This document shows, piece by piece, positions 2,133-5,000 of a stretch of 54,578 nt of DNA (its first letter is position 1; each line of letters begins with the position of its first letter). Source of the DNA: Alphaproteobacteria bacterium (GTDB lineage: Bacteria > Pseudomonadota > Alphaproteobacteria > UBA828); assembly GCA_022826665.1 (NCBI GenBank), contig JAJDUK010000027.1, positions 1 to 54,578 on the forward strand, read 5' to 3'. The position numbers were made by a program, and so were the translations under genes. The notes beneath the pieces were generated by a model that saw only the letters and a program-made list of their open reading frames with translations, searched no databases and was not told the DNA's origin.

Positions 2133-3932
2133 ATGCATCGATTTCGAACGCATACCTGCGGCGCGCTCAGGCCGTCCGATGTCGGCTCGACCGTGCGCCT
2201 CTCCGGCTGGGTCCATCGGGTGCGCGATCACGGCCATCTCGTCTTCGTGGACCTGCGCGACCACTACGGCATCACCCAGTGCGTCGCCGAGACCGGTGAG
2301 CCGCTGTTCGATGCGGTGACGGCGCTGAAGCCGGAGACGGTGGTGACGCTGACCGGCCCCGTCGTGACGCGCGATGAAGAGACGGTGAACCCCAAGATTC
2401 CCACCGGCGAGGTCGAGGTGCGGATCGCCGAGCTCCAGGTGCAGAACGCGGCCGAGACCCTGCCGCTGCCGGTTCACGGCGAGCACGACTATGGCGAGGA
2501 GGTGCGGCTCCGCTACCGCTTCCTCGACCTCAGGCGCGAGCGCATGCACCAGAACATGGTGCGCCGCAGTGCTATCGTCGCCAGCATCCGCCGGCACATG
2601 GTCGAGCAGGGCTTCATGGAGTGCCACACGCCAATCCTCACCGCGAGCTCGCCCGAGGGCGCGCGGGACTTCCTGGTGCCGAGCCGGCTGCATCCTGGCA
2701 CCTTCTACGCGCTGCCGCAGGCGCCGCAGCAGTTCAAGCAGCTGGTCATGGCGTCCGGCTTCGACCGTTACTTTCAGATCGCGCCCTGCTTCCGTGACGA
2801 GGACGCGCGCGCCGACCGCTCCCCCGGCGAGTTCTACCAGCTCGATGTCGAGATGGCGTTCGTCGAGCAGGAGGACGTGTTCGACGCGCTGGAGCCGGTG
2901 ATGCACGGTGTCTTCACCGAGTTCACCGAACGCGCGGTCACCAAACCGCCGTTCCCGCGCTTCGCCTACAAGGATGCGATGCTGCGCTTCGGGACCGACA
3001 AGCCGGACCTGCGCATCCCCATCGAGATCGTCGACCTCACCGAGCAGTTCGGGCGCGAGGAGGTGACGTTCAAGGCCTTCAAGGGGACAATTGCCAAGGG
3101 GGGCGTCGTGCGCGGCATTCCGGTGAAGGGGATCGCCGACCGGCCGCGCAGCTTCTTCGACCGGATGATCGGGTTCGCTCAGGACCTGGGCGCGCCCGGC
3201 CTCGGCTACATCACCTTTGCCGACGGGGCCGGCAAGGGGCCGATCGCGAAGTTCGTGCCGGACGCGGTACAGGAGGAGATACGCTCGATCGCGGGCCTTG
3301 AGGACGGCGATGCGGTCTTCCTGAGCTGCGACAAGCCGGATGCTGCCGCGCGCTATGCCGGCGCTGTGCGGCTCGAGCTCGGCAAGCGGCTGGACCTGAT
3401 CGACGAGGACAGGTTCGCGTTCTGCTGGATCGTCGACTACCCGATGTTCGAGCGCGACGCGCAGACCGGTGCCATCGGCTTCAGCCACAACCCCTTCTCC
3501 ATGCCGCAAGGCGGGATGGAGGCGCTGGAGAGCGACGATCCGTTGGGCGTACTCGCCTACCAGTACGACATCGTTTGTAACGGCGTGGAGCTTTCCAGCG
3601 GCGCGATCCGCAATCACCAGCCCGATCTGATGGTCAAGGCGTTCGAGATCGCGGGCTACGGCGAGGACGAGGTGAAGCGCCGCTTCGGCGCGCTCTACCA
3701 CGCCTTCCAGTACGGCGCGCCACCCCACGGCGGCATCGCGCCCGGTATCGACCGGATCGTCATGCTGCTCTCGGACGAGCCCAACATACGCGAGGTCATC
3801 ATGTTCCCTCTCAACCAGACGGCGCAGGACCTGATGATGGGGGCGCCGGCGACCGTGCCGGACAGGCACCTCAAGGAGCTGAGCCTCAAGCTCGACCTGC
3901 CGCCCAAGCGGGAGACGGGGGATGAGGGGTAG
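2133..3932 (+). CDS. aspS: Aspartyl-tRNA synthetase
   Basis: 599-aa class IIb aminoacyl-tRNA synthetase of bacterial length. The N-terminal OB-fold anticodon domain (about 1-110; [22 protein letters not shown]) is followed by motif 1. Motif 2 contains [19 protein letters not shown], a bacterial GAD-type insertion sits at about 290-410, and motif 3 is [14 protein letters not shown]. It charges tRNA-Asp; whether it also charges tRNA-Asn cannot be told here because no gatCAB is in the window. The open frame runs back to 2028, but the ATG at 2133 gives the family N-terminus ([12 protein letters not shown]). Confidence 0.97.
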
Positions 3933-3976
3933 AGGCTCATTTGTCCCGGCGGCGTGCCACCTGGGCGGTTATTCAC

Positions 3977-4006
3977 TTGTAGATTTCCTCAGCCCATCTA
4001 TATAAT
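3977..4006 (+). promoter_or_regulatory. Sigma70-like promoter of the toxin-antitoxin operon
   Basis: -35 TTGTAG (3977-3982), an 18-base spacer, and a perfect -10 TATAAT (4001-4006) in otherwise GC-rich DNA. The -10 lies inside the left arm of a 30-bp palindrome. Transcription would begin near 4013 and the antitoxin GTG is at 4033. Confidence 0.7.
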
Positions 4007-4023
4007 GATCATTATATAGATGG
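3994..4023 (+). repeat. 30-bp perfect palindrome, probable TA operator
   Basis: The two 15-base arms (left CCATCTATATAATGA, 3994-4008) are exact reverse complements with no spacer. The palindrome is very AT-rich compared with its surroundings. It covers the TATAAT box and reaches the first bases of the antitoxin Shine-Dalgarno (TGGAGG, 4021-4026). AbrB/MazE-type antitoxins usually repress their own operon at such palindromes, so this is the expected operator. Use as an operator is inferred. Confidence 0.75.
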
Positions 4024-4032
4024 AGGTTTCCT

Positions 4033-4260
4033 GTGCTCTCCTTCAAGATCACCACCGTCGGTGCATCGTCTGGCGTCATCCTCACCAAGGAGGCGATGGC
4101 GCGCCTTCGCGTGAAGAAGGGCGATACGCTCTATCTGACCGAAGCGCCGGACGGCGGCTACCGGCTAACCCCGTACGACCCTGACTTCGCGCGCCAGATG
4201 GCGCTTGCCGAAGAGGTCATGCACGACGACCGCGAGGTGCTGCGGGCGCTCGCGAAGTGA
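4033..4260 (+). CDS. AbrB/MazE-family antitoxin (Doc partner)
   Basis: 75-aa protein with an N-terminal swapped-hairpin AbrB/MazE-type DNA-binding domain (SFKITTVGASSGVILTKEAM; KKGDTLYLTEAPDGG) and a short acidic helical tail (about 50-75) that would wrap the toxin. It matches the 'putative addiction module antidote' group that pairs with Doc. Start GTG at 4033 with GGAGG seven bases upstream. Its TGA overlaps the toxin GTG in GTGA (4257-4260), so translation is coupled. It likely neutralises Doc and represses the operon at the palindrome. Confidence 0.88.
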   Translation: MLSFKITTVGASSGVILTKEAMARLRVKKGDTLYLTEAPDGGYRLTPYDPDFARQMALAEEVMHDDREVLRALAK

Positions 4261-4655
4261 GCGCAGAAGGTCATGATTCTTGGAACTGGATCGGTCTGAA
4301 TGTTGTCTTGGCCATCCATGACCGTCAAATTGCCGAGCACGGCGGCTCAGACGGCATACGCGATCTTGGAGCAATCGAGTCGGCCTTAGCCCGCCCGGTG
4401 AATCTCGCGGCGTACGACGATCCCGATGCCGCCGCGCTGGCCGCCACCTACATGTATGGGTTGGCCAAGAATCACGGGTTCGTCGACGGCAACAAGCGAG
4501 TGGCCTGGGTCGTCGGGCGCCTGTTTTTGCTGGATAACGATTACCGCCTCGTCTTCGATCCTTTGGAAGCGATCCGCATAATGGAGAGCGTCGCGGCCGG
4601 CCACGCCGGTGAGGCTGAACTTGCCGAGTGGTTGCAGGCTCGCTTGCTCGATTGA
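4257..4655 (+). CDS. doc: Doc-type Fic toxin (death on curing)
   Basis: 132-aa Fic-fold protein. The motif HGFVDGNKR (H73, D77, N79, K80, R81) fits the Doc/Fic signature HxFx(D/A)GNKR. In phage P1 Doc this motif phosphorylates EF-Tu and stops translation. The length matches Doc (about 126 aa). It starts at a GTG that overlaps the antitoxin stop. The conserved His, Asp, Asn and Arg are all present, so the toxin looks functional. The identity of the target here is taken from the family. Confidence 0.9.
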   Translation: MSAEGHDSWNWIGLNVVLAIHDRQIAEHGGSDGIRDLGAIESALARPVNLAAYDDPDAAALAATYMYGLAKNHGFVDGNKRVAWVVGRLFLLDNDYRLVFDPLEAIRIMESVAAGHAGEAELAEWLQARLLD

Positions 4656-4676
4656 TCGAGACGGAAGCGCTTCCCC

Positions 4677-5000
4677 TCAGTGCTGCGGGTTGAAGTGCAG
4701 CGGGTCGCAGGCCTCGATGACGTCGCGGCGCTTGTAAATCTCCACCAGGTTGGAAACCTCCACGAGTGAGAGGGTGATCAGGTAGAGGCGGTGCGCCGGT
4801 GCCGGCCTGTTGTCGCTTGGAACGCCATCCAGGTAGGCGATGATCTCCTCCATGCGCGGCATCATCACATCGTAGAAGGCGCGGAGCTCCTCCATCGAGG
4901 ACTCGGTTTTCTTCGCCGTGCGGGCGCGCTCGGGCTCCAGCGCCCAGCCGAGCCAGGGGGCGAGGTCCTCGAACCCGTCCGGCAACACGGCGTCGGCCAT
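4677..5000 (-). CDS. Uncharacterised 107-aa protein beside a Rieske oxygenase
   Basis: I do not recognise this family. The protein is soluble, largely helical and Trp/Glu/Arg-rich near the N-terminus (LAPWLGWALEPERARTAKK), with a central helix EELRAFYDVMMPRMEEIIAYL and a C-terminal segment LVEVSNLVEIYKRRDVIEACDPLHF. There is no signal peptide, membrane segment or Cys/His cluster for a cofactor. It lies 31 bases downstream of the oxygenase on the same strand, so it is probably co-transcribed and may be an accessory to that enzyme (inference). The ATG at 5000 follows GGAAAGGAAC. Confidence 0.65.
   Translation of the reverse strand: MADAVLPDGFEDLAPWLGWALEPERARTAKKTESSMEELRAFYDVMMPRMEEIIAYLDGVPSDNRPAPAHRLYLITLSLVEVSNLVEIYKRRDVIEACDPLHFNPQH

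Follow-up and report, generated by a model that had tools for sequence, protein, structure and literature searches.

The window, i.e., the whole 54,578-nt stretch of alphaproteobacterial DNA that was analysed, carries on its plus strand two genes arranged as a toxin-antitoxin operon. The first (positions 4033–4260) encodes an antitoxin of 75 amino acids and the second (4257–4655) a Doc toxin of 132 amino acids; both start with GTG, and the stop of the antitoxin gene and the start of the toxin gene share 4 nt (GTGA). The pair lies within a carrier segment, positions 3926–4668, whose ends were set by BLASTN of window positions 3801–5000. The gene upstream, ending at 3932, we take to be aspS. On the 3' side of the operon a convergent hypothetical gene on the minus strand (4677–5000) codes for a conserved 107-aa protein, which had no family match in Pfam or NCBIfam; within the genus its homologue adjoins what is presumably a Rieske-type oxygenase gene.

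Ahead of the antitoxin gene is a perfect 30-bp palindrome (3994–4023), with arms CCATCTATATAATGA (3994–4008) and TCATTATATAGATGG (4009–4023) that are 100% complementary and have a spacer of 0. No longer perfect palindrome occurs in the 54.6-kb window, where the runner-up is 16 bp, and 60 first-order Markov simulations of the window produced none above 26 bp, the highest value reached, so that the palindrome is not accounted for by chance. Its G+C content is 27%, compared to 69% for the window, and the –10 hexamer TATAAT (4001–4006) lies inside it, as the original prediction had stated. The same prediction had the palindrome extend to the Shine-Dalgarno sequence of the antitoxin gene; the two do make contact, but only the first two bases of the Shine-Dalgarno sequence GGAGG (4022–4026, plus strand) fall within the palindrome.

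Identity of the antitoxin and toxin

The antitoxin belongs to TIGR02609 (doc_partner; AbrB/MazE-like), scoring 62.7 bits against a curated cut-off of 55.9, and it has the Doc neighbour of that family, overlapping the TIGR01550 protein by 4 nt. Against Pfam MazE_antitoxin (PF04014) it reached 17.7 bits (E 0.0036), below the gathering score of 24.7, and no Phd-family profile in Pfam or NCBIfam matched it at E values up to 1, in agreement with the prediction of an AbrB-type rather than a Phd-type partner. The toxin exceeded the cut-offs of two profiles, with 65.2 bits for TIGR01550 (threshold 38.65) and 63.3 bits for Pfam Fic (threshold 24), and it matched structures of P1 Doc (best 3k33, E 2.2e-11). 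Its Fic/Doc motif HGFVDGNKR (4473–4499, plus strand) satisfies HxFx(D/N)(A/G)NKR and begins at residue 73, so the His73 named at the outset is where it was said to be. In PADLOC the toxin drew several candidate PDC models, the best of them at 38.1 bits, and the antitoxin drew none.

The AlphaFold model of the antitoxin (mean pLDDT 80.8, built with 19 sequences) has strands at residues 5–9 and 12–16, joined by a turn that includes residue 11, and closes with a long helix at the C-terminus (residues 50–74). The chains nearest to the model were MazE bound to DNA (2mru, Z 4.5, 2.2 Å over 50 residues) and VapBC2 bound to DNA (3zvk, Z 4.4); SpoVT, MazE, VapB and AbrB chains were also among the best, with Z at most 4.5. 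The tool itself rates matches with Z below 8 as weak, and the domain is small, so that these matches support an AbrB/MazE-type fold and do not prove it. Judging from the model, the antitoxin would share its class of DNA-binding fold with the antitoxins of MazEF and AbrB-type VapBC systems, whose toxins are RNases unrelated to Doc.

Relation to known systems

By its sequence the module is an AbrB/MazE-like antitoxin with Doc (TIGR02609 plus TIGR01550), and is TasAB-like. Treating an AbrB-type antitoxin as unusual beside Doc is outdated, since the pairing constitutes an NCBIfam family of its own, and TasA-TasB was described in 2006 as a composite mazE-doc system of wide distribution, whose toxin yielded clones in E. 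coli only when mutated (PMC1626090). TasA-TasB has the same two families in the same order as the window, with the AbrB/MazE-like antitoxin first, but in the clade to which the window belongs G-A-S replaces G-N-S, and the operator half-site differs as well. The terms "palindrom" and "inverted repeat" do not occur in that paper. A pneumococcal TIGR02609-Doc pair has been reported to limit recombinase transcription (PMC6265443).

The EFPhd-EFDoc system of E. faecalis (PDB 9VZC) likewise has an AbrB-like antitoxin, the same Doc motif and a palindrome near a TATA box. EFPhd is reported to bind, as a dimer, a single 10-bp palindrome, TGTATATACA, and to lose DNA binding in the triple mutant of Lys8, Arg10 and Asn14, while the full complex is described as not binding DNA (PMC13034048, 2026). 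The two toxins are only distantly related (9vzc_A, E 0.00019). In P1 Phd-Doc the toxin is homologous, the antitoxin gene comes first and repression at the promoter is expected as in the window, but the Phd antitoxin is from another family. The combination of antitoxin and toxin is thus already known, and the module itself is ordinary.

A conserved operator upstream of the antitoxin genes

Regions upstream of related antitoxin genes were compared in a set from which poor or pattern-only loci (L017, L020, L037–L040) were excluded by name, and from which loci with less than 60 nt upstream, exact duplicates and one row without a start codon (103 reduced to 102) were dropped. Among 86 representatives at most 90% identical, drawn from these 102 unique loci, 26, 34, 32, 29 and 19 loci had an inverted repeat that paired at 7 or more of 8 positions around a spacer of 0, 2, 4, 6 and 8, respectively; the odd spacers 1, 3, 5 and 7 gave 4, 2, 3 and 3 loci, and the shuffled means were 1.9–3.7. 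Even spacers share one axis, which indicates that a single dyad lies upstream of the antitoxin genes. A neutral core (WTATWA in each half-site, with the ends and the spacer left free) matched at 10 or more of 12 positions in 82 of 113 loci, versus 9–15 loci in ten shuffled sets, and on this basis the family operator is 8 bp + N4 + 8 bp. Its typical form is GTTATWAC-N4-GTWATAAC. The form in the window's clade is TATATAAT-N4-ATTATATA. An operator of the 8 + N4 + 8 design was not readable in 31 of the 113 loci, some of which have other spacings. Two loci with more distant antitoxins (L077 and L135) have a longer palindrome of other spacing, CGTTGTAC..5..GTACAACG, which suggests that spacing varies between subfamilies.

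Within the window this comparison places the conserved operator, CTATATAAT-N4-ATTATATAG, at 3998–4019 as the predicted antitoxin binding site. The left half-site (3999–4006, plus strand) is TATATAAT and holds the –10 TATAAT; the spacer, GATC (4007–4010), is at a position that is variable in the relatives; the right half-site (4011–4018, minus strand) is the same 8-mer inverted. Spacers found in the clade were GATC, GTTC, AATC, AGCT, ATTC, CATC, AGTC, GAAC, GCTT, GTAT, CAAT, AAAG, GTTT and GGAT, and only the window and L029, two of the 17 clade loci with a readable operator, have one that is fully self-complementary. The outer CCAT/ATGG extension is common only to the window and to L002 of the same genus. 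The palindrome therefore looks longer than the conserved element because GATC and the outer bases happen to pair: "spacer-less", as it was first described, is literally correct for the window but is not a conserved property, since the relatives vary in a 4-bp spacer.

When the operator pattern was searched for in IMG/VR, an antitoxin match was present at none of at least 120 loci, among the matches listed; with so high an AT content, the 20-bp pattern has no predictive value for an antitoxin gene in AT-rich viral DNA.

Promoter overlap and the question of an RNA hairpin

A weak –35-like sequence, TTGTAG (3977–3982, plus strand), begins 24 nt ahead of the –10, with 18 nt between the two, and agrees with the –35 consensus at 3 of 6 positions; a promoter scan reported no site at its threshold, the TTGTAG/TATAAT pair included. 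Across the 82 loci, TTG occurred 45 times at the six offsets that lie 20–25 nt ahead of the –10, compared with 30 times at all 19 remaining offsets scanned, and this enrichment at –35 distance makes the left half-site a plausible –10 in general. A divergent promoter was considered, as TATAAT is also present on the minus strand, and was rejected because that strand has no TTG peak at –35 distance; TTG counts there were highest at offsets 30–31. Transcription from the plus-strand hexamer would start near 4013, about seven bases after the –10 and inside the right half-site.

The original prediction was that a bound antitoxin, or an mRNA hairpin, could block both transcription and translation. Overlap of operator and promoter and conservation of the dyad support the first of these, as a means by which a bound antitoxin could repress; the hairpin did not fare as well. 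RNA from 3990–4050 does fold into a 13-bp hairpin (–16 kcal/mol, z –2.2) whose right arm holds two bases of the Shine-Dalgarno sequence, and RNA reading through from the upstream gene would have both arms. A transcript starting near 4013, as deduced from the –10, cannot form it, however, and the hairpin is absent when RNA is folded from 4012, approximately the predicted start. The palindrome reaches a Shine-Dalgarno-like sequence in only 3 of the 17 clade loci with a readable operator, such a sequence being outside the palindrome or not recognised in the others. Since the left arm would be missing from a transcript that starts at this TATAAT, and relatives rarely show an overlap with the Shine-Dalgarno sequence, a leader hairpin is unlikely; moreover, conservation extends to the primary sequence TATATAAT and not to pairing alone. 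That the palindrome serves mainly as a 5' leader hairpin hiding the Shine-Dalgarno sequence of the antitoxin gene is accordingly very improbable, and as a main function it was rejected on the start site and on the Shine-Dalgarno overlap not being conserved. A translational block is unlikely unless RNA reads through from the gene upstream.

A loop residue that may track the ends of the half-sites

The profile of the window's family aligns with EFPhd (9vzc_B, E 0.012), so that Lys8, Arg10 and Asn14 of EFPhd correspond to Lys5, Thr7 and Ala11 of the window antitoxin; two of the three residues thus differ (Arg10/Asn14 there, Thr7/Ala11 here). The codon for Ala11, the middle residue of G-A-S, is at 4063–4065 (plus strand). 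Loops of AbrB-type proteins are reported to read bases in the major groove (PMC3384007).

Among loci with a readable operator, Asn in the loop goes with C at half-site position 8 in 93 of 114 half-sites and with G at position 1 in 82 of 114; Ala goes with T at position 8 (31 of 32) and also at position 1 (26 of 32); and with Thr the half-site is A......T in 8 of 8. The three Ser members of the clade (L023, L027 and L266) together have 6 half-sites, 4 of which carry C at position 8, with the L027 operator scoring below the core threshold. Three Asn loci were scored as AT-ended, and their printed half-sites look misregistered. Over all 75 antitoxin positions, position 11 carried the most information on the class of operator ends (0.61 bits in excess, of 1.21), followed by position 18 (0.41 bits), where Thr versus Pro marks the same clade as the loop residue does. 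A later set of 20 loci left 18 for scoring (one lacked a start and one was already included), among which L260, whose loop (G-N-G) was misread, is to be disregarded; the operator was readable in 16, and of the 28 half-sites that go with Asn all had C at position 8 and 21 had G at position 1.

On the tree the changes that could count as independent are few (6 for the loop residue and 5 for the operator), and a test of independent pairs on 108 rows, the set left once near-copies and any row whose profile E-value exceeded 1e-12 had been removed, gave 2 pairs for, 0 against and 1 without difference, which is not significant. The sequences thus suggest that the G-x-S residue tracks the end bases of the half-site, in an association that is strong and that rests on few independent evolutionary changes. 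A stronger proposal is that across TIGR02609 a one-residue code sets the ends of the half-sites, and that the window's clade switched from Asn to Ala and became insulated from other modules; on the sequence comparisons we hold this to be conceivable, and a little more doubtful than probable.

The half-sites also bear on how many antitoxin dimers the operator would hold. One dimer might span the whole operator, its two subunits each contacting one of the 8-bp half-sites; in favour of this, half-sites in the window's clade have little symmetry of their own, 28 of 32 Ala-type ones pairing at 2 of the 4 internal pairs. Asn-type half-sites, most of which are self-symmetric (84 of 114 pair at 3 or 4 of the 4 internal pairs), speak against this arrangement, as does the E. 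faecalis dimer, which is reported to bind a single 10-bp palindrome (PMC13034048). The one-dimer arrangement is possible, and we regard it as the less probable one; one dimer on each half-site is the simplest reading. The single site reported for E. faecalis, and a complex there that does not bind DNA, leave both the two-dimer step and any corepressor step uncertain.

Distribution, mobility and decay

Of 191 relatives, 20 have the antitoxin, the window's own genome included, and a search of named genome contigs gave 15 loci. TIGR02609 was detected in 57 of 385 genomes of the class, 37 of them above the cut-off, in 51 of 398 genomes of the phylum, 43 of them above it, in 135 of 72,556 plasmid records and in 3 IMG/VR contigs, and in none of 50,697 phage records. 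A Doc motif lies downstream of the antitoxin gene in 84 of the 102 loci, and tblastn added Doc homologues at some of the remaining ones (e.g., L011, L012 and L028). Antitoxins 80–88% identical to that of the window occur in Martelella, on plasmids of Azospirillum, Rhodospirillum and Martelella, and in contigs binned as Gemmatimonadaceae, Chloroflexi, Acidobacteria, Proteobacteria and Gammaproteobacteria, although these bins may be contaminated.

In a genome of the same genus (G001, locus L123) the flanks are continuous, with about 21 bp instead of window positions 3926–4668; BLASTN matches between the two stop at 3925 and restart at 4669. The module is mobile on the evidence of this empty site. 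A second genome (G002, L126) has it between the same genes as the window. Another species of the genus (G006, L124) has a different segment, of about 850 bp, at the same intergenic site, so the place may be an insertion spot.

It is highly unlikely that the palindrome is the site of some other, host-encoded regulator, for the site travels with the antitoxin gene across different phyla and plasmids, and its end bases track an antitoxin residue. The inner 20 bp of the palindrome, furthermore, has one exact occurrence in its own genome (4.63 Mb, 106 contigs), and the 22-bp form CTATATAATNNNNATTATATAG is exact in 1 of 385 genomes of the class, namely that same genome. A wider regulon was considered and rejected: three further sites in the genome, each with 3 mismatches, equal the count of three from the reversed control.

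Decay is seen within the clade. The two eroded operators of the Ala/Ser clade are those of L025, where Doc is internally deleted, and L027, where no Doc was found. At L071 (positions 2501–4162; plasmid pAB510f of Azospirillum sp. B510) an IS630-like element splits Doc, and the operator is intact. At L028 (2734–3099) the Doc relative has the catalytic His of the Fic motif replaced by Arg, and is possibly inactive, with the antitoxin and operator intact. As L028 and L071 keep their operators, erosion after toxin loss is not general. With such decayed members (L025, L027, L028 and L071) in its clade, the window locus might itself be a decayed or non-toxic copy kept only as a regulator; both of its frames are open, however, and the Doc motif is complete and the operator intact, so that we think this unlikely.

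Proposed mechanism and significance

We consider it highly probable that the locus is a mobile type II toxin-antitoxin operon, in which the antitoxin, on two half-sites, represses its own synthesis at the –10, and Doc, once freed, arrests translation. The conserved 8 + N4 + 8 element, with the –10 in its left half-site, fits an antitoxin operator for such autorepression. The antitoxin would bind the two 8-bp half-sites that flank the 4-bp spacer, most simply as one dimer on each; with the –10 contained in the left half-site, binding would block RNA polymerase and keep the operon repressed. Degradation of the antitoxin would lift repression, and free Doc would then arrest translation, by homology through phosphorylation of EF-Tu, an activity reported for Doc (PMC4803016, PMC13034048). 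DNA binding, repression, the seating of one dimer on each half-site, toxicity and neutralisation are steps that we infer.

We found no earlier description of the family operator GTTATWAC-N4 or of a residue code in the literature covered, which took in few subscription journals. The useful part of the analysis is the predicted operator for a widespread antitoxin family, together with the hypothesis that one residue governs specificity. If the code is true, Asn would read G......C, Thr A......T and Ala T......T, and Ser would tolerate an inner C or T; the switch from Asn to Ala would have co-evolved with a site that doubles as the promoter –10; and the clade would be insulated from the common GTTATAAC-type modules, so that both could share one cell. 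The operator and the one-residue hypothesis could then allow cross-talk or insulation between such modules to be predicted from sequence.
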